Positions 4,697 to 64,000 of a stretch of DNA of 64,000 nt are shown here, in pieces; within the stretch, counting starts at the first letter, position 1, and every line of letters begins with the position of its first letter. This DNA comes from Planococcus halotolerans. Its GTDB lineage: Bacteria > Bacillota > Bacilli > Bacillales_A > Planococcaceae. The notes under the pieces were generated by a model. It was not told the origin of the DNA. It saw only the letters and a list, made by a program, of their open reading frames with translations, and searched no databases. The DNA is taken from assembly GCF_003289955.1 (NCBI RefSeq), contig NZ_QLZR01000001.1:372001-436000 (forward strand). Direction: 5' to 3'. The position numbers and the translations under genes were made by a program.

Positions 4697-5392
4697 ATGA
4701 ATAATGTAAAGAACACCTTCAAAGAAGTTGTTGCTGCCATTATGCCTGTTACCATTGTAGTCATCTTTTTACAGATTGCAATTATTCGTCTGCCAATGGA
4801 AGCTTTGCTTCAATTCCTCATTGGCGTTTTTTTTGTCAGCATCGGTTTTTTCCTGTTTTTATTGGGGGTAAATGCCGGGCTCCTTCCTATCGGAGAATTA
4901 ATCGGTAAACGATTGCCGAGAACAAAAAATGCATGGCTTATCATTGGTACCGGTTTATTGCTCGGAATCGTCGTAACGATTGCGGAACCGGATTTACGGG
5001 TGCTGGCTACCCAAATCGATAATGTGTCGAAAGGAGCGATAAGCGCTACGATACTGATACTTTCCGTGTCGCTGGGATTAGCCCTCTTCGTTGCCCTAGC
5101 CATGATCCGAACACTTTTCAACATACCTTTGCATTTTGTCCTCATTGCCGGTTATGCCGCCGTTTTCCTGTTATCTTTCTTCGTCCCGGATGCTTTTGTT
5201 CCAATTTCATTTGATTCCGGCGGAGTTACGACCGGTCCGATGGCAGTCCCTTTTATCCTGGCGCTCGGCGTTGGTGTCGCATCTTCTCTGAGACCCAAAG
5301 ATTCCAAAGATGAAACAGAAGGATTCGGGTTGATCGGTCTCGCTTCAATCGGACCGATTTTGGCGGTCATGATACTGGGGGTGATTTTCTGA
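4697..5392 (+). CDS. DUF1538 membrane protein, first copy
   Basis: 231 residues with about six hydrophobic segments and the conserved face F(D/E)SGGVTTGPM (here ISFDSGGVTTGPMAVPF) typical of DUF1538, a family of probable inner-membrane transporters. Start ATG 4697 follows GGAGAGACAGG. It overlaps the next gene by one base (TGATG), so translation is coupled. The gene pair probably encodes two halves of one transporter, since each protein carries the same repeat. The linked PII gene suggests control by nucleotides or nitrogen/carbon state. Substrate unknown. Confidence 0.85.
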   Translation: MNNVKNTFKEVVAAIMPVTIVVIFLQIAIIRLPMEALLQFLIGVFFVSIGFFLFLLGVNAGLLPIGELIGKRLPRTKNAWLIIGTGLLLGIVVTIAEPDLRVLATQIDNVSKGAISATILILSVSLGLALFVALAMIRTLFNIPLHFVLIAGYAAVFLLSFFVPDAFVPISFDSGGVTTGPMAVPFILALGVGVASSLRPKDSKDETEGFGLIGLASIGPILAVMILGVIF

Positions 5393-7390: not shown

Positions 7391-8602
7391 CTATAGTGAA
7401 AGCTCTCCGATATTATTGGATTTCTGTGGTTTGCTTTCTTCCTCTTTTTCCTGCTTCAGTGAAATCCGGCCTGTGTTCGCCCGGACTTTTCCTTGCAATG
7501 CACCTTTAATCTCTGCTGAAGCCGCAAGTACTTCACCGAATATATCCAATGTATTCACCTTGGACAATAATGTATCGGCATCTACATCTTCATCGATTGC
7601 CAGGATGCCGTCGACAATCAGGGTTACTGGCTCCTGCAGAGATTCAAATTGGCTGTTTGACCAGTGCTCTTCTCCTTCAATCAGGATATATCGATTGCTG
7701 TATGACAGCACTTCCGTCTCCAGCCGCTCCAATTTTTCATAGATCAGATCTTCAATTTCTTCACTGCATACGATAAATGATTTTGAATCGATGCGATCAA
7801 TTGCATTTTCAAGCGCTGTTCTTGGAACGTCCGCCTCGAATATTACCGGTTTTTTTGTCATCAATTTTTCATTGCGGAAGCTCTTGATCGAACGCGAATT
7901 AATGCGGAGTGCTTTCTTCAAGATCCGGTAACCCGCCGGAATCACTTCGATGATACCGTTTGGAGCAGAATCCATTTTCCGGTGAAGCAATGCTTCCTGC
8001 TCTTCGTGGACGGACACCATGCCGTTGACGGCTATTTTTTTGATTTTTGATTCGAATAAAGCTGCGTCAATATCTGTTGGAATGGTCAGCATACCGTTGA
8101 CAACCAGATGAACCGGCTCTTCCGCCGCTTCCAGAAAAGCATTGCTTAATGTGATGCTGCCATTTTCAAGCCGCGGGGGGGCGCCTTCATAGACTTCTAT
8201 CGTACGGCTGCCTTGCGGAAATTGCTGGTTCACTTGTCCCGCTAATTTAGAAGGTGTATAAATTTCCCCGTTCACAATAATGTCGAGCAGTCCTTTCTTT
8301 AACTGCTCCGGCTCAACGTCGTGAGCGATGATGAGCATGCCGTTCAGCACCATTTTCATCGGCTGGTCGATGGAATTGAGGTAATCTTTATTGATTTCCA
8401 ATGTACCGTTGTAATAACCGAACTCATCAGGCACTTCAACCGTCTTGCCGATATTGCCGATTTTGAGTGCTGCCAAAAGATGCGATTGGCCGCTTCTATA
8501 AAGCACCAGGCCAACGTTCCCAATCCTTTCATAAGCCTGGACACTTTGTTCTGTTGCATTCAATAAATTCAGTACTCCTACGTTGCCGACTGTCTGTTTC
8601 AT
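7391..8602 (-). CDS. Uncharacterised 403-aa protein with three internal repeats, downstream of an ECF sigma factor
   Basis: Not recognised with certainty. No signal peptide or membrane segment. A unit of about 40 residues occurs three times: MKMVLNGMLIIAHDVEPEQL near residue 82, VHLVVNGMLTIPTDIDAALF near 164 and VTLIVDGILAIDEDVDADTL near 324, each followed about 20 residues later by a V(N/F)GE/M(V/I) strand. The N-terminus (VGNVGVLNLLNATEQSV) has shorter beta-like GN(V/I)G repeats. The pattern suggests a beta-solenoid or a polymerising scaffold, possibly bactofilin-like, but this is inference. Two bases separate it from the sigma gene, so they are translationally linked, and it may act as the sigma factor's partner. 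Confidence 0.7.
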   Translation of the reverse strand: MKQTVGNVGVLNLLNATEQSVQAYERIGNVGLVLYRSGQSHLLAALKIGNIGKTVEVPDEFGYYNGTLEINKDYLNSIDQPMKMVLNGMLIIAHDVEPEQLKKGLLDIIVNGEIYTPSKLAGQVNQQFPQGSRTIEVYEGAPPRLENGSITLSNAFLEAAEEPVHLVVNGMLTIPTDIDAALFESKIKKIAVNGMVSVHEEQEALLHRKMDSAPNGIIEVIPAGYRILKKALRINSRSIKSFRNEKLMTKKPVIFEADVPRTALENAIDRIDSKSFIVCSEEIEDLIYEKLERLETEVLSYSNRYILIEGEEHWSNSQFESLQEPVTLIVDGILAIDEDVDADTLLSKVNTLDIFGEVLAASAEIKGALQGKVRANTGRISLKQEKEEESKPQKSNNIGELSL

Positions 8603-8604
8603 CC

Positions 8605-9066
8605 TTATTCCTCCTCAAGTATGTCTCTCAATTTTTTAATCGCGAAATGCAGCTTATATCTGATGGTCGCTGCCGGGACTTGAAGCTGGTCCCCGATTTC
8701 CTTGCTGGTCATCCCCAGCCAATAACGCTTGAATATAAGATCGCCCATTTCGGGAGTAAGATGCGACAGCAACTCGGTCATTTCCAGCCGGTTGAGCGCC
8801 AATGTCTGTTCCGGAAAATCCATTTCTTCTTCCCACTCTGATATGCGCTGGTCTTTTCGCCGATCATCAATCAGCCGATTTTTCATCACCCTGAAAAACC
8901 ATGCACGCTGCTTGTAGATTGGCTGATTCACCAATTCTTTTTCCTTAAGCGACTTTTCGAGAGCGTCCTGCATCAGGTCATCTGCTTCCTGCTCGTGCCG
9001 GGAAATGGAACGGGCGAAGCGGACCAAGTCATTTTTCAGATTTTCATACATCGTTTCGGTATCCAT
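8605..9066 (-). CDS. ECF-type RNA polymerase sigma factor
   Basis: 153 residues with region 2 (LVRFARSISRHEQEADDLMQ, then RAWFFRVMKNRLIDDRR) and region 4 (HLTPEMGDLIFKRYWLGMTS followed by KEIGDQLQVPAATIRYKLHF) of sigma-70 family group 4. I prefer ATG 9066 (MDTETMYENLK), preceded by GCGGGG; an upstream in-frame ATG at 9102 lacks a ribosome binding site. No classical anti-sigma factor with a membrane segment follows; instead a soluble repeat protein and two tiny proteins do. A weak ECF-like promoter lies 43-69 nt upstream of the start. Confidence 0.88.
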   Translation of the reverse strand: MDTETMYENLKNDLVRFARSISRHEQEADDLMQDALEKSLKEKELVNQPIYKQRAWFFRVMKNRLIDDRRKDQRISEWEEEMDFPEQTLALNRLEMTELLSHLTPEMGDLIFKRYWLGMTSKEIGDQLQVPAATIRYKLHFAIKKLRDILEEE

Positions 9067-45809: not shown

Positions 45810-45849
45810 TCGAGCTAATTCAATAGTTCTTGCTCCCTTTTTCAGTGGA

Positions 45850-46026
45850 GTGAGGATAGAGGCGCAAACACCATCAGTAAGCAGAATGAGGAGCACGGGC
45901 TCCGACGACTTCTGCCGGAAGGGGTGCTTGCCGAAGCGGCGGGGAGCCCCTGATCCCTGTTGCTGGTCCTGCATTTAAGAGATGCCGGACTGTCATGCGG
46001 AATGTTCCGTATGGAGGGCTATCTGG
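45850..46026 (+). ncRNA. Lysine riboswitch (L-box) aptamer
   Basis: Conserved L-box blocks in order: GAGGATAGAGGCGC, CATCAGTAA, the GGGGTGCTTGCCGAAG segment, then CTGTCATGCGG and GGAGGGCTATCT, whose GCTATC end closes helix P1 with GATAG near the 5' side. Binds lysine and controls transcription by choosing between terminator and antiterminator. A terminator hairpin follows at 46059 and dapA at 46299. Confidence 0.9.
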
Positions 46027-46058
46027 CGTACAGCGACACAAGCGGTTTGTGTTGCTGC

Positions 46059-56747: not shown

Positions 56748-56797
56748 AAGCCCCGGCCACCCCTCTTTTTTTACAGAGGGTTGGCCGGGGCTCTTTT
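56748..56797. terminator. Bidirectional terminator between patatin and selA
   Basis: Long stem AAAGCCCCGGCCA/TGGCCGGGGCTCTTT with an inner CCCTCT/AGAGGG helix and a T-rich loop; overlaps the selA stop. Confidence 0.9.
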
Positions 56798-58209
56798 TAT
56801 ATCATTGCGTTAATATCTACAAGACTCTGCATGACTTCTTCCACTTCTTCTTCACGAACTGTACGGAAGTCGATGCACACTTTATCATCCTGAATTCTCG
56901 CAATGACCGGCGGACGGCTTTCTCGCAGACGCGCCGCCAGTTCTTGCGCCGGCAGCGATTTATGGCTGATAGCCGTCAGATGCGTGGGAATTTGGACTTC
57001 CGGCATCGTGCCGCCGCCAATTTGTGAAAAGCCGTCCAGCAATTCCAGCCGGTAATCGCCTGTGCGTGATTCCAAGGCTGAGATAAAATTTTCTGCCTGC
57101 TGCTTAATGTCACTGGAAGAACGCATGATATCCCGCACTGTCGGAATTTCCATTACCGCATTGCCGCCGGCAACATAAGCTTTCAGCGTTTCTTCCAATG
57201 CGGCAAACGTCATTTTATCGACCCGCAGCACACGGGCCAGCTGATGTTTCTTGAGTTTATCAATGAGGTCTTTGTTGCCGGCGATGATGCCGGCTTGGGG
57301 GCCACCGAGCAATTTGTCGCCGCTGAAGCTGACAATATCCACGCCTGCTGCAATCACATCCCGCACATGCGGTTCGTTGCCGATACCGTGCTTCTTAAAA
57401 TCGAAAAGCGCACCGCTGCCGAGGTCTTCATAGAAAACCAGCCCTTCATGGCGTTTTTTTAATTCTGCCAATTCTTCCGTTTCAACTGTTGCCGTAAAAC
57501 CCGACATGACGAAATTGCTGGTATGGACTTTCATGATCATCGCCGTCTCCTCGTTGACCGCGTTTTCATAATCAAATAAATGCGTTTTATTGGTAGTACC
57601 GACTTCATGGAGATATGCACCGCTTTCTTCCATTATGGAAGAAACCCGGAATGATCCGCCGATTTCAACAAGCTGGCCTCGGGATACGATGACTTCTTTG
57701 TTTTTCGCCATCGCGCTTAATATCAAAAACACTGCCGCAGCGTTATTGTTCACGACCATGGCTGCTTCAGCCCCTGTCGCCTGCTTAATCAGATCTTCCA
57801 GAATGTCATGACGCGAACCGCGCTTTCCTTCGGCGATGCGATATTCCAGATTGGAGTAGTCACACGCTGCCCGTGCGACGTGTTCGACTGCCCGGCTGCT
57901 CAGCCGTGAGCGCCCGAGATTGGTATGCAGCACCGTACCTGTTCCGTTGATGACGCGCATGAGCCGGTCTTCATTCCATTCGCCTGCTTTTTTTTCCGCA
58001 TTGCTGAAAATCAGGCCTATGAAATTTTCTTCAGAAGGCGAAACAGCCGACTCACCATTCAGCAGACTTTCGCGCAGCTTACTCAATTCCTGCTGGATAA
58101 ATTTTGTGCCTTGATCGGCAGTCAGTTGGAAAGAATTCAAAAAATCTTCAAAACGCCTGTCTTTCTGCAATTCATGGACGGGCGGTAACTGGCGCAAATA
58201 TTGCTTCAT
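56797..58209 (-). CDS. selA: L-seryl-tRNA(Sec) selenium transferase
   Basis: 470-residue PLP enzyme that converts Ser-tRNA(Sec) to Sec-tRNA(Sec) with selenophosphate. The N-terminus begins MKQYLRQLPPVHELQKD; INGTGTVLHTNLGRSRLS is the tRNA/PLP-proximal signature, and the PLP Lys is in FSGDKLLGGPQAG. Length matches bacterial SelA. ATG 58209 with GGAGG. Third gene of the selB-selW-selA unit, 67 nt after the SelW-like stop. Ends at the strong terminator. Confidence 0.97.
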   Translation of the reverse strand: MKQYLRQLPPVHELQKDRRFEDFLNSFQLTADQGTKFIQQELSKLRESLLNGESAVSPSEENFIGLIFSNAEKKAGEWNEDRLMRVINGTGTVLHTNLGRSRLSSRAVEHVARAACDYSNLEYRIAEGKRGSRHDILEDLIKQATGAEAAMVVNNNAAAVFLILSAMAKNKEVIVSRGQLVEIGGSFRVSSIMEESGAYLHEVGTTNKTHLFDYENAVNEETAMIMKVHTSNFVMSGFTATVETEELAELKKRHEGLVFYEDLGSGALFDFKKHGIGNEPHVRDVIAAGVDIVSFSGDKLLGGPQAGIIAGNKDLIDKLKKHQLARVLRVDKMTFAALEETLKAYVAGGNAVMEIPTVRDIMRSSSDIKQQAENFISALESRTGDYRLELLDGFSQIGGGTMPEVQIPTHLTAISHKSLPAQELAARLRESRPPVIARIQDDKVCIDFRTVREEEVEEVMQSLVDINAMI

Positions 58210-58526: not shown

Positions 58527-60425
58527 TTACTTACCTGTCCACCGGCGCTGATCCTCTTCGCGCTCTGTGATGTCCAACAAATCAAACAGTTCCAATAACG
58601 GAATCAGATATTTTCTCGATAAATCCAGCGAATCTTTGGCCTCTTTCAAGCCGAATGCCTCGGCAGTATCCTGCTTGAGTTTTGTAACTGCCCTTTTAAC
58701 GGCATTGCGGTGGATCATCGTATCAGCCTGCAGCCGGTAAATTTGCCCCGTCTCCAGTAAATACAGCGTCAAATCCGTAATCTCATCCTTCGGCAAAGGC
58801 GTGCCTTCGAAATACTGCTCCCATTTCTTCACTTGGATGCCGTCCTTCTCAAGCGCTGAAATGATTCCTACCATACGCACCTTCCATTGTTTCGGCAAAT
58901 GCGGTTCGAATGTGCCGAGCGCAATAAATTGTCCGGTCTTCTTCAATTCTCCCTGAGCGGCCAAAGCATTCAGGCTGTATTCAATAAAAGGCTTCGGATA
59001 CCCCGCGCTCAGCGACTGGGTCAATTCTGCCTTGCTCATGCCCGGCCTCATCGGATAGTCTGTATGATAACTTTCCACACGCGCACCGATTTCCCCTTTG
59101 ATCTTCGAAAAAGTTTTGGCCAGGCTGAATTTCTGCGAACCCACTTCCAGCAGGCTGCCGTCCTCCACCCCTTTTGCAATGGTTTCTTTCAGGACCGGTT
59201 CATCCAGTGAAGTTTGTTGAATCAGCTGCTGCAGATCAAGCAGGATATTTTTCGATAACACTTCTTCAACGAGATCTTCCGGAGTTCCCTGCATCACGTT
59301 CTGCAGCATCTCAATCGTTTCCGGACCGAAACGGTATTTACCGCCTCTCGGCTGGATCACCCAGCCGCCGCCCAGTGTTTCAACCGGCGTTGGCCGCCGC
59401 AGGATAAAGCGGTCGCCGCGCCGGACCACGATTTCTTCATCGAGCCGGATCTGGCACAGCACTTCCTCATCGGTCTGCTCCAGTTCATTGCGGTCAAAAA
59501 AGACAATTTTCCCCATCACTTCCGAAGTCCCCACGTGCACTTTCACCGGCGACCGCTGCTTGAGTGGCGTAAATGCGCCACTGGTAAGGTTCAATGCCAC
59601 ATCAATCGTGTCGGTCACCAGAAAATGGTCGGACGCCACCAGCACATTTCCCCGAAAAACATCTGTCTTTTCGATTCCTCCAAGATTGATCGCTGTCCGC
59701 TGTCCTGCACGCGCTTCTTCCCGCTCTTCGTGATGAACTTGAATCTGGCGCGCTTTCACTTTCAGCCCTTTTGGCAATAAAGTCAGCTGCGTCCCTTTTT
59801 GGACTGCCCCTTCATAAATTGTTCCGCGGACAACCGTGCCTTGTCCTTGAACAGTAAATACCTGATCAATCGGCAAACGGAATGAACCATAGGCGTCACG
59901 GAATTTTACCGCCTGCAGGCTATCGATGATCGTTGACTTCAATTGATCGATGCCTGTTCCCGATAAACTGTCGACCAGCATATACGGCGCTCCATCAAAA
60001 ATTGTTCCTTCAAGTCGTTCCTGAATGTCTTCCTGAACGAGCTCCAGCATAATTTCATCGACGCGGTCGATTTTCGTGATGGCCACGATGCAATGTTCGA
60101 CGCCCAGAAACTGAAGAATTTCCAGATGTTCCTCAGTTTGCGGCATGACACCTTCATCTGCCGCAATGACAAGAACCACTAGATCGATTCCAGCCACGCC
60201 CGCAATCATCTGGCGGATAAAACGCTCGTGCCCCGGCACGTCGATGATGGATAATTGCGTTCCATCTTCTGTCTGGAATGGCGCGTAACCGGGTTCAATG
60301 GAAATGCCCCGCTCTTTCTCTTCCTTTAAGCGGTCCGTATCCACATTCGTCAACGCCTTCGTCAGCGCCGTTTTGCCGTGGTCGATATGCCCGGCCATGC
60401 CGATTGTATAATATGTCTTCTCCAT
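58527..60425 (-). CDS. selB: Selenocysteine-specific translation elongation factor SelB
   Basis: 632 residues. GTPase domain with [14 protein letters not shown] (P loop), DVPGHERF (G3) and ITKID (G4), a switch region [15 protein letters not shown] typical of SelB, beta-barrel domains 2-3, and four C-terminal winged helices (about 370-632) that bind the SECIS hairpin. It delivers Sec-tRNA to UGA on SECIS-bearing mRNAs. ATG 60425 with GGGTGAG. First gene of the minus-strand operon, divergent from tRNA-Sec. Confidence 0.97.
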
Positions 60426-60561: not shown

Positions 60562-60658
60562 GGGGTTGGATGAGTGACTGGTGTCTTCCTGGGTCTTCAA
60601 AACCCTGAGGGACCTGCGTGCCAGGTCCGGTGGGTTCGATTCCCACACGATCCCGCCA
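60562..60658 (+). tRNA. selC: tRNA-Sec (anticodon UCA)
   Basis: 97 nt ending in encoded GCCA. Anticodon TCA (60597-60599) in loop CTTCAAA; a long variable arm GGACCTG/CAGGTCC with 5-nt loop and a T arm GTGGG/CCCAC. The acceptor pairs GGGGTTG with CGATCCC; an eighth pair, expected in bacterial tRNA-Sec, would be G-A here. The anticodon stem has one T-T apposition. Length, variable arm and UCA identify it. Confidence 0.93.
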
Positions 60659-60722: not shown

Positions 60723-60820
60723 TTTGCGTGCGATTAAAATGATTTGCGTGCGATCCGGGACTGCTTGCGTGCGGTTAATTTCATTTGCGTGCGATTAACG
60801 CTCTCTTGCGTGCGTTCCGC
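60723..60820 (+). repeat. Array of 20/21-nt repeats, core TTGCGTGCGATTAA
   Basis: Five cores (TTTGCGTGCG alignment) at 60723, 60743, 60764, 60784 and 60805: spacing 20, 21, 20, 21. Cores 1 and 4 are complete (GCGATTAA), 2, 3 and 5 vary at the right end. Lies between the tRNA-Sec terminator and the glycosyltransferase promoter region. Confidence 0.9.
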
Positions 60821-60963: not shown

Positions 60964-61974
60964 ATGAAAATAGTATTGGCCGCGCCCAATTATCCGCAGC
61001 CGCGAGGCAACACTGTAACTGTGCGAAGAATTGCAGCGAATTTGGAGAAAATTGGCGTACGGACTGAAATTGTTTCAATTACAGGAGAAAACTGCGCCCG
61101 CACATTACCGGAAGCGAACCTGGTGCATGGCTTTCACGCCTATTACTTCCATCAGTTTCTGCAGCAGCTTGATCAAAAACCGGAATCTTATATCATCACG
61201 ATGACCGGCACTGATTTGAATGCGGATCTTTTTAATCCTGAAAAACGCCCTAAGGTTCTCAGCACGCTGGAAGGCGCCCAGGCGATCCACGTTTTTGATG
61301 AAGCCGCAAAAACCACTGTGCTGCAGGAAGCGCCGCAATTCGAAGGAAAAGTCTTCGCGATTGCCCAAGGCACCAGCGAATTTTCTCCGACGCACAGTTC
61401 CCAGCTCGAAAAAGAAGCGGACACATTTTTATTCGTATTGCCGGCGGGCATCCGGAAAGTGAAAAATATCCCGTTTGCCATCAACGCTATCCGCAAGCTT
61501 CATGAAGACTTTCAAAATCTTCGCCTGTGGCTGGCTGGCCCTATTCTCGAACAAGCGGAAGCGGACATGGTGCTCGCTTTGGCGGAAGAACATGCCGACT
61601 GGCTGACATATATCGGTGAAATTCCCCATGCGGAAATGGGCGCTGTTTTCGAAAAAGCAGACGTCGTGCTGAATACTTCCCATTCAGAAGGGCAGCCCGC
61701 CGCGATTCTGGAAGCGATGGGTTATGGCAAACCGGTTCTGGTTTCCAACGTTCCTGGCAACAAAGGAATGGTTGAAAATGGAAAAACCGGGTATTTGTAT
61801 AATGACCAAAATCAATTCCTTGATTACGCAGCCAAGCTGATTAATAATAACGAAGCAAGGCAACGCATCGGCATGCAGGCAAAACAATATGCGGCCGATC
61901 ACCATTCCCCTTCCTTCGAAGCGGAAGCTTTGCTGAAGATTTATACTTCAATCACACAGCAAGACAATACTTAA
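60964..61974 (+). CDS. GT4-type glycosyltransferase, SenB-like, upstream of selD
   Basis: 336 residues, GT-B fold. N-terminal APNYPQPRGNTVTVRRIAAN, then YIITMTGTDLNADLF; C-terminal donor site VLPAGIRKVKNIPFAINAIR and the GT4 E-x7-E motif in SEGQPAAILEAMGYGKPVLV. The GN-x-x-T-x-R start and the TGTDL motif recall SenB (TIGR04348-type) selenosugar synthases, which join selenophosphate to a sugar nucleotide. The gene ends 22 nt before selD with only a ribosome binding site between, so co-transcription is likely. Assignment as selenosugar synthase is inference; a plain glycosyltransferase is the alternative. Confidence 0.8.
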   Translation: MKIVLAAPNYPQPRGNTVTVRRIAANLEKIGVRTEIVSITGENCARTLPEANLVHGFHAYYFHQFLQQLDQKPESYIITMTGTDLNADLFNPEKRPKVLSTLEGAQAIHVFDEAAKTTVLQEAPQFEGKVFAIAQGTSEFSPTHSSQLEKEADTFLFVLPAGIRKVKNIPFAINAIRKLHEDFQNLRLWLAGPILEQAEADMVLALAEEHADWLTYIGEIPHAEMGAVFEKADVVLNTSHSEGQPAAILEAMGYGKPVLVSNVPGNKGMVENGKTGYLYNDQNQFLDYAAKLINNNEARQRIGMQAKQYAADHHSPSFEAEALLKIYTSITQQDNT

Positions 61975-61996
61975 TATAGAAAAGAGGCGGATCCTA

Positions 61997-63046
61997 ATGA
62001 CTGAAAAAGATATGGTTAAATTGACTTCTTTATCATCTAAAGGTGGTTGAGGATGCAAAATTGGTCCTGAGGACCTGGCGCAGGTTCTGCGTCATTTACC
62101 GAGAAATGCAGAAAACCCTAATTTACTGGTCGGGCTGGATACAGCCGACGATGCCGGTGTTTACAAAATCAGCGACGATGTGGCGCTTGTCCAAACTTTG
62201 GACTTTTTCACACCAATCGTCGACGATCCTTATATGTTCGGACAAATCGGTGCAGCCAACTCATTGAGCGATGTTTATGCAATGGGCGGCAAGCCGCTGA
62301 CCGTTATGAATATCGTGGCGTTTCCGATCAACACGCTTGATAAGAGCATCCTGGCTGACATTTTAGCCGGCGCTTCCGATAAAGTGAAAGAATCCGGCGC
62401 CACTTTGGTTGGCGGACATTCAATCGACGACGAGGAGCCGAAATTCGGATTATCCGTGACCGGCACGATTCACCCTGACCGCATCCGCTCCAACGCTGGT
62501 GCACAGGCTGGCGACCGCTTGATTTTGACCAAGCCGATTGGTGTCGGCATATTGACGACAGCCATCAAACGGGACTTGCTTGAAAAAGACGATCTTACAG
62601 AAGTGATGGACGTTATGGCTACGCTGAATAAAAAAGCGGCTGAAGCGATGGAAAACTATACCGTCAATGCATGCACGGATGTAACTGGCTTCGGCCTTCT
62701 TGGCCACACGATGGAAATCGCAAAAGGCAGCAGCACCGGTGTAACAATCTACAACGATGAAGTACCAGTTCTTTCAAAAGCAAAAGAACTTGCCGAACAG
62801 AACATCATTCCCGGCGGCACTTATAAAAATCACAAATGGCTTGCAGCCGATATCGATTACGCGGACAACATCAGCGAAATCGATCAGCTTATCCTATGTG
62901 ACGCTGTAACTTCCGGCGGCTTATTGATTTCTGTTCCGGCAGCTGAAGCTGATGCACTGCAGCGCGATCTTCAGAGCAGCGGTGTTCAATCTTCAATTAT
63001 CGGAGAAGTTACCGAAGACAATGCGGGACGCATTAAAGTTATCTAA
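61997..63046 (+). CDS. selD: Selenophosphate synthase SelD with in-frame UGA (Sec18)
   Basis: 349 residues when UGA 62048-62050 is read as Sec: MTEKDMVKLTSLSSKGG-Sec-GCKIGPEDL and onward. Sec18 takes the place of the active-site Cys (Cys17 in E. coli), followed by the essential Lys in GCKI. ATP-site motifs VGLDTADDAGVY and LVGGHSIDDEEPKFGLS are present, as is the C-terminal domain (CDVTGFGLLGH-like ACTDVTGFGLLGHTME). Makes selenophosphate for SelA and possibly for the SenB-like enzyme. ATG 61997 with AAAGAGGCGG. If UGA is taken as stop, a gene finder would wrongly start at 62180. Confidence 0.96.
62048..62080 (+). promoter_or_regulatory. Candidate bacterial SECIS element of selD
   Basis: About 14 nt after UGA the mRNA forms GGTCC-TGA-GGACC, a 5-bp stem with G in a 3-nt loop, about 19 nt from the codon. 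Fits the compact bacterial SECIS pattern. Confidence 0.65.
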
Positions 63047-63071: not shown

Positions 63072-63103
63072 AAAAACAAGGACTCGCAACGAGTCCTTGT
63101 TTT
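63072..63103. terminator. Terminator of the glycosyltransferase-selD operon
   Basis: Perfect 14-bp stem AAAACAAGGACTCG/CGAGTCCTTGTTTT, 26 nt after the selD stop. Confidence 0.9.
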
Positions 63104-63162
63104 AAAATTACAGGCAATACGATAAGCCGTAGCGGCATCACCAAAGAATAGAGTTGATTTTG

Positions 63163-63918
63163 ATGTGGTTTAAAAAGAGAAGTTTAATAATATACGCTTT
63201 ATTGGTTGTGGCGATATTCATCAGTATGCGGCTGACTGAGTTCGATCTGACGAAATTCCGGGATTTCTGGAACATGATAGACTTCTTGTCGCAATGGTTC
63301 CCGATGGATTTCACACGCCTGCCCGGTATGCTTGAAGATACCCTGGCCACTTTGGCGATGGCGTTTCTCGGCAGTTTTCTTGGACTGATTATCGGTCTGC
63401 CACTGAGTTTTCTGGCAGCGCGGAATACAGCACATTCCAAGCCCGTTTTTCATTTTTTCCGGGTGGCACTCAGTTTTGTGCGTTCTGTACCGGAAATCGT
63501 CTTTGGTTTGATTCTCCTGACTACACTTGGGCTCGGGCCATTCCCGGCAGTTCTGGCGATTACATTCCATAATATCGGCGTCATGGGCAAACTGATTTCC
63601 GAGCTAATCGAAGCGGCGGATACCGGACCACAGGAAGCGATGAAAGCGGTCGGCGCAAAACGCTGGGTCGCTTCCCTCTTCAGCATTCTTCCCCAAATTT
63701 GGCCGAATGTCCTGTCCAACTTTTTCTATCGTTTCGAAGTGGCGATCCGCACTTCATTGATATTGGGATTCATCGGCGGCGGCGGCATCGGCCAGCGTCT
63801 GTTCAATGATTTCAATACGTTTAACTATTCATCTGTGTCGCTCGACGTCCTGATCATCATGGTCATGGTAATTCTCGTCGATTCGCTCGGAAGCTTTGTC
63901 CGGAATCGTGTTATCTAA
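63163..63918 (+). CDS. ABC transporter permease, PhnE family
   Basis: 251 residues, about six membrane segments. Typical PhnE pattern: TLATLAMAFLGSFLGLIIGL, SFVRSVPEIVFGLILL, the permease loop AMKAVGAKRWVASLF and ILGFIGGGGIGQRLFNDFN. Such permeases import phosphonates, phosphite or related oxyanions with PhnC and PhnD. ATG 63163 is preferred but its ribosome binding site is weak; TTG 63154 is an alternative. No binding protein lies upstream. Its nearness to selD raises the possibility of a selenium oxyanion or other anion as substrate, which is only inference. Confidence 0.85.
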   Translation: MWFKKRSLIIYALLVVAIFISMRLTEFDLTKFRDFWNMIDFLSQWFPMDFTRLPGMLEDTLATLAMAFLGSFLGLIIGLPLSFLAARNTAHSKPVFHFFRVALSFVRSVPEIVFGLILLTTLGLGPFPAVLAITFHNIGVMGKLISELIEAADTGPQEAMKAVGAKRWVASLFSILPQIWPNVLSNFFYRFEVAIRTSLILGFIGGGGIGQRLFNDFNTFNYSSVSLDVLIIMVMVILVDSLGSFVRNRVI

Positions 63919-63931
63919 AGGAGGCATGAAA

Positions 63932-64000
63932 ATGCTTGAACTGAAAAATGTATCAGTCCGGTACCCAGGAATGAAGAAAAATGCCCTTTCCGATTTGAAT
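63932..64000 (+). CDS. ABC transporter ATP-binding protein, PhnC-type (start only)
   Basis: The first 23 residues, MLELKNVSVRYPGMKKNALS DLN, look like the start of a PhnC-type ATPase. ATG 63932 has AAGGAGG at 7 nt, while ATG 63926 is too close. The gene runs out of the window before Walker A. Confidence 0.75.
   Translation, partial: MLELKNVSVRYPGMKKNALSDLN

Follow-up and report, generated by a model that had tools for sequence, protein, structure and literature searches.

The glycosyltransferase (GT) encoded directly upstream of selD in Planococcus halotolerans has a real link to selenium. Judged by its sequence, the enzyme is a distant relative of SenB that lies outside the TIGR04348 family by the cut-off of that model, and it is likely to work like SenB. 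Together with a deacetylase and an importer encoded near selD, it hints at an undescribed route to small selenium compounds. A first-pass annotation of the window (the whole stretch of 64,000 nucleotides analysed here) had proposed a SenB-like GT that draws on SelD for a selenosugar pathway. New here are a PhnCDE-type transporter and a NodB-like deacetylase in the same block, and a PIG-L protein in nine relatives from other classes.

The selenium locus of Planococcus halotolerans

The features of the locus are listed in Table 1. The spacing of 22 nt between the GT stop and the selD start, given by the first-pass annotation, was confirmed; likewise, this gap is free of terminator-like sites in the consensus scan, and the strong terminator described after selD corresponds to a stable hairpin. 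This hairpin, a likely terminator, is absent from the list of the scan, and its four-T run sits within the stem. Predicted stem-loops 3' of the selD UGA fold no better than shuffled sequences (z -1.4). Past the window end follow phnC, a gene for a NodB-like deacetylase, a gene for a PhnD-like binding protein on the opposite strand, and one for a YedE-like transporter. The PhnD-like protein passes the general model TIGR01098 (219.4 bits, cut-off 112.05) and scores below the cut-offs of the PhnD model TIGR03431 (207.1 bits, cut-off 261.1) and of TIGR04553, a putative selenate ABC transporter binding protein (172.6 bits, cut-off 250).

Between tRNA-Sec and the GT, positions 60724-60814 hold five copies of TTGCGTGCG at a spacing of about 20 bp. 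Copies also occur in the relatives L005 (5), L006 (3) and L013 (4); there are none elsewhere in the window, nor in L004 and 12 other loci inspected.

Table 1. Features of the P. halotolerans locus, in window positions
Feature	Position	Strand	Details
Lysine riboswitch	45849-46029	+	120 bits
selA	56797..58209	-	TIGR00474 568.8 bits, cut-off 267.9
selB	58527..60425	-	TIGR00475 368.7 bits, cut-off 242.25
tRNA-Sec	60562..60658	+	ARAGORN and Rfam
SenB-like GT-B glycosyltransferase (GT)	60964..61974	+	336 aa ORF
selD	61997..63046	+	349 aa; TIGR00476 420.6 bits, above the cut-off of 125
In-frame TGA of selD	62048-62050	+	codon 18
Stretch from the selD UGA with predicted stem-loops	62048..62095	+	SECIS-like by position only
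Hairpin 3' of selD, likely terminator	63073..63103	+	14 pairs, -19.9 kcal/mol, z -9.4 versus shuffles
phnE-like permease	63154..63918	+	TIGR01097 254.1 bits, cut-off 216.7
phnC-like ATPase, 5' part	63926..64000	+	continues past the window; ATG start chosen by us

Family, fold and conserved residues of the GT

Among NCBIfam models, the GT fits NF038229 best (GPMC system family 4 glycosyltransferase), matching it over the full length with 302 bits. Its cut-off of 400 is reached neither by the GT nor by any genome of the phylum, window's-family and class samples or of the family around G211. The letters GPMC presumably point to Geobacter or Pelobacter loci, and a search for 'GPMC system' with glycosyltransferase found no paper. 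SenB (TIGR04348) is the second model, covering residues 7-326 with 93 bits; as the cut-off is 300, the membership in this family that the first-pass annotation wished to see checked does not hold. The BshA model TIGR03999 scores 57.1 bits, below its cut-off of 273.7.

SenB is the top phmmer match of the GT in the PDB (53.6 bits, runner-up 42.5), whereas a profile built from 23 members of the GT family scores BshA (95.6 bits) above SenB (89.8 bits). Comparison of a structural model with SenB, also suggested by the annotation, gave a divided answer. With the AlphaFold2 model (pLDDT 93.8), Foldseek places SenB at ranks 1-9, but VIA-align 2 ranks BshA (Z 35.2) and MshA (34.4) above SenB (33.1), even as the highest identity to the GT, 24%, belongs to SenB. 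Since the two methods disagree, the modelled fold alone does not decide whether SenB or BshA is the nearer relative.

One tree also included BshA and five further GT4 proteins from the same genome; there the GT family and SenB stand on one side of a branch with 99/100 support, long branches being flagged among the outside rows. A tree built before that, with BshA and a single GT4 protein, sets them apart with 100/100. Grouping with ordinary GT4 enzymes, which the annotation had named as the outcome that would speak against it, is thus not seen. SenB is nested inside the clade of the GT family, and the window GT falls in a subclade without SenB (support 92/87 in the five-GT4 tree and 96/88 in the one-GT4 tree). 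Subfamilies A and B of the GT were assigned by eye from the alignment, and L035, L041, L047 and L048, labelled A, yet lie outside the A subclade in both trees.

The SenB structure paper assigns N20 and T23 to a GNxxT motif and T83, T85 and D86 to a TGTDL motif (PMC10891094). Both motifs had been noted in the GT, and both are present, GNxxT as RGNTVT. Using the SenB numbering of that paper, we compared 15 positions, leaving out L209 and T214, and 13 of them match in the window GT: N20, T23, H58, T83, T85, D86, Q131, R155, V157, K158, E231, G232 and E239; the GT counterpart of N20 is N16. The exceptions are R61 of the SenB selenophosphate pocket, which is Tyr, and H235, which is Ala; in the same alignment the EGGAHV motif reads EGQPAA. 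The BshA of the window genome keeps 7 of 14 tabulated residues. N20, T23, H58, T83, Q131 and G232 discriminate SenB from BshA, and the GT sides with SenB at all six. RxVK and GTD were dropped as SenB marks: alone they carry no weight, because BshA has both. The earlier description of the enzyme as SenB-like stands on its place in the SenB clade and its conserved linkage with selD, and is weakened by the missed TIGR04348 cut-off and by Tyr in place of R61.

These results bear on a different chemistry, in which the acceptor is not selenophosphate and the GT and deacetylase make a bacillithiol-like conjugate of malate, thiophosphate or another small acid, selD being close by for some other reason. 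The motifs RxVK and GTD, common to BshA, and the equally high scores of BshA by profile and fold would fit such chemistry. Yet the window genome encodes a separate bona fide BshA (554 bits, cut-off 273.7), the BshA cut-off is passed in 14 of 33 genomes searched, and the trees and residues N20, T23, H58, T83 and Q131 go with SenB. The trees and the separate BshA speak against ordinary GT4 function as well. We regard a bacillithiol-like conjugate as unlikely.

In two relatives, L101 (GT 7995-9020, minus strand; genome G660) and L102 (GT 8001-9020, plus strand; genome G672), the GT has an in-frame TGA at residue 44, near which several relatives carry Trp. A hairpin with the loop GAGGGU is predicted 3' of the TGA in both, and the GT itself may be a selenoprotein there.

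Linkage with selD and partner genes

GT presence was called at E <= 1e-40 to NF038229 and selD presence at E <= 1e-30 to TIGR00476. Because few candidates per genome were scored (about five in the phylum sample, about nine or ten in the window's family and the class sample), absences of either gene are not absolute. In the window's family, 23 of 220 genomes have the GT and 61 have selD. In-frame TGA codons occur in the selD of these 23 GT genomes and of no others; in the remaining 38, selD is free of TGA and no GT was seen. Matches to the two genes lie less than 200 nt apart in all 23, so that the conserved linkage, whose absence the annotation would have counted against its proposal, is there. 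Nine named relatives in the genome collection, all Planococcus or Planomicrobium, start selD 21-60 nt after the GT without exception; in L008-L012 selD is followed on the same strand by phnD, phnE and phnC.

The genus divides into 20 genomes with both genes and 16 with neither. Co-occurrence at this level is not independent evidence, because the block is gained and lost as a unit. Such behaviour would also suit a GT and a NodB-like enzyme that modify cell-surface glycans and are passengers in a selenium island, as would the top NCBIfam scores of the NodB-like protein, which go to the PdaB and PdaA models, below cut-off. We think this very improbable, since gene order around selD varies across several families and the tree and residues place the GT on the SenB side.

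Evidence from beyond the family comes from a class sample of 200 genomes, where the GT occurs in 37, selD in 67 and both in 33 (Fisher 6e-15, kinship not corrected): selD is present in 33 of 37 GT genomes versus 34 of 163 others. It lies within 10 kb of the GT in 13 of the 33, spread over seven families, which again argues against a bacillithiol-like conjugate. By subfamily, selD is found in 19 of 20 A genomes and 14 of 17 B genomes. No selD was found in G650, whose subfamily A GT sits on a 3.4-kb contig with selU adjoining, or in G632, G648 and G661 (loci L089, L088 and L087), which carry subfamily-B relatives. These three genomes fit an acceptor other than selenophosphate, which the subfamily-B branch may indeed use.

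Gene order differs among loci. In L091, L093, L094, L096 and L100, selA and selD flank the GT and selU comes behind; L085 reads GT, phnD, phnE, phnC, selD, with selU divergent; and phnD, phnE and phnC come after the GT in L071, L098, L101 and L102. Behind phnC, L071 encodes a 204-aa protein that looks by eye like a SAM methyltransferase (4736-5350, minus strand). Directly upstream of the GT, L036 (9159-10016, minus) and L046 (681-1538, plus) encode a soluble protein with a chemotaxis MCP signalling domain.

Across the phylum sample (398 genomes) the GT was found in 18, all of which have selD, compared with 263 of 398 overall (hypergeometric 5e-4). At the 17 loci outside the class, as judged from kinship labels, no sel gene was seen in the fetched stretches, several of which are short contigs. 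In the family around G211, the GT count is one of nine genomes. Plasmid records gave 166 matches to the GT, two of which span 80% of the query. A Streptomyces GT ranks first, and no sel gene is annotated close to it.

The NodB-like partner (202 aa) passes PF01522 with 121.7 bits and carries the CE4 motifs TFDDGP, HxxxH and RPPYG. None of the nine NCBIfam models listed is passed, and the highest scores go to PdaB and PdaA. Inspection revealed no signal stretch, and the deacetylase is cytosolic-looking. In the window's family, every one of the 23 genomes with a GT has an orthologue at most 5.5 kb from it (57-100% identity to that of the window genome), and none of 16 congeners that lack the GT has one: 14 of these have no match at E 1e-25 and two have matches of 33-36%. 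Among the nine named Planococcus and Planomicrobium relatives, the block includes NodB in eight. An orthologue also adjoins the GT in L032, where selD is on a separate contig, and in L071 and L074; L095 has only a NodB-type neighbour of 31% on the opposite strand.

Among the 17 loci from other classes, nine have a PIG-L (BshB-like) protein adjoining the GT on the same strand. For four such partners a scan gave BshB1 as the nearest model, with 100-126 bits against a cut-off of 182.5, a further point that a bacillithiol-like conjugate would explain. Four other loci outside the class have a protein of 452-486 aa behind the GT; of two scanned with Pfam, one passes PF01522 weakly (24.6, cut-off 23.1) and one has no match, and NCBIfam gave no match in two. 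That one GT family is accompanied by de-N-acetylases of two unrelated families suggests an N-acetyl-amino-sugar conjugate as the product of the GT.

The deacetylases may also be beside the point. The GT could be a Se-glycosyltransferase whose selenosugar serves, without deacetylation, as a selenium reserve or detoxified form, the NodB-like enzyme having another substrate or merely travelling along. It would then be no surprise that an orthologous deacetylase was not seen by the GT in 15 of the 17 subfamily-A class loci outside the window's family (L071 and L074 being the two that have it), or that L010 has a GT-selD-PhnDEC block in which NodB was not seen. The NodB neighbours in L032, L071 and L074, and the second, unrelated deacetylase type in nine relatives, make this improbable in our view.

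The first-pass annotation had seen no SenA partner in the window, and we found none on searching the window genome (G000), where the best score on the SenA model is 114.6 bits (cut-off 420). The search of 46 genomes gave matches at E 1e-5 in 15 of them, at 17 places. An NCBIfam scan of three of the 17 shows two that exceed the EgtB cut-off but not that of SenA; the third, in G000, reaches neither.

A candidate selenosugar route and its relation to known systems

We give an even chance to a route in which a SenB-like Se-glycosyltransferase and SelD make Se-GlcNAc, this is deacetylated to a selenol, and PhnCDE supplies the selenium source. We infer acceptor, donor, deacetylation, product, transported substrate and role from gene content, linkage, co-occurrence, homology and conserved residues. 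The neighbouring SelD would make selenophosphate, and the GT, as a Se-glycosyltransferase of the SenB-like clade, would let it attack C1 of a UDP-sugar, most likely UDP-GlcNAc. The C-Se bond thereby formed would give a selenosugar (Se-GlcNAc), to be freed by K167, the equivalent of SenB K158. This chemistry is that of SenB, transferred by homology from two papers (PMC10891094, PMC10702425). In the window's family the NodB-like (CE4) enzyme of the block would then deacetylate Se-GlcNAc to seleno-glucosamine, a step that the unrelated PIG-L (BshB-like) deacetylase would take on Se-GlcNAc in the nine relatives of other classes, while the selenium source would be brought in by the PhnCDE-type importer of the block. 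The resulting small selenol would act as a redox compound, a selenium reserve or a precursor. The selenosugar pathway proposed earlier gains from the GT-selD linkage, and its product would be shaped by the deacetylase and transporter, which lie beyond the gene pair considered then.

More tentatively, bacteria of the phylum may make 1-seleno-glucosamine, a small selenol, by a bacillithiol-like logic: a Se-glycosyl transfer would join the sugar of UDP-GlcNAc to selenophosphate, and one of two unrelated deacetylases would then remove the acetyl group. This would be a SelD-dependent selenium trait that is neither Sec nor selenouridine, the Se cofactor, selenoneine or ovoselenol.

Some organisms carry selD although no selenium trait is known for them (2022 review, PMC9312934). 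In Slackia, the functional partners listed for selenium genes include the glycosyltransferase Shel_25140 (2015 survey, PMC5322559). A 2026 review gives selenoneine and ovoselenol as the two bacterial selenometabolites characterised recently (PMC13188914). A 2024 paper calls SenB the only Se-glycosyltransferase identified until then, and itself adds two SenB orthologues (PMC10891094). No paper was found for Planococc-, selenocysteine and selD together. Among the matches listed, no title or opening abstract names a selD-linked GT with a deacetylase; Kayrouz 2022 or the 2024 ovoselenol paper may describe such a linkage. A branch of SenB-like enzymes that is linked to selD in several families, lacks SenA and has a deacetylase in some places would point to one more selenium metabolite, a new one should the deacetylated product prove real. 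The GT and deacetylase are a directly testable enzyme pair.

Among known systems, SenB, the selenosugar synthase of senABC (TIGR04348; PDB 8JJN, 8FBX), is like the GT in its clade, in the GNxxT, TGTD, RxVK and EG motifs, and as the best PDB match by phmmer and Foldseek; it differs by the score of 93 out of 300 bits and at R61 (Tyr) and H235 (Ala). Unlike senABC, the window genome has no SenA found but a whole Sec locus, a transporter and a deacetylase. NF038229 is the best full-length match, with 302 bits, but its cut-off of 400 is missed. With BshA and BshB of bacillithiol synthesis the GT shares the GT4 fold, RxVK and GTD and, we infer, the logic of glycosyl transfer followed by de-N-acetylation, whereas it differs from BshA at N20, T23, H58, T83 and Q131 and is encoded alongside a separate BshA. 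The NodB-like partner resembles the polysaccharide deacetylases PdaB, PdaA and NodB (CE4) in PF01522, TFDDGP, HxxxH and RPPYG, but differs in its length of 202 aa, its lack of a signal stretch on inspection and its scores below the NCBIfam cut-offs.
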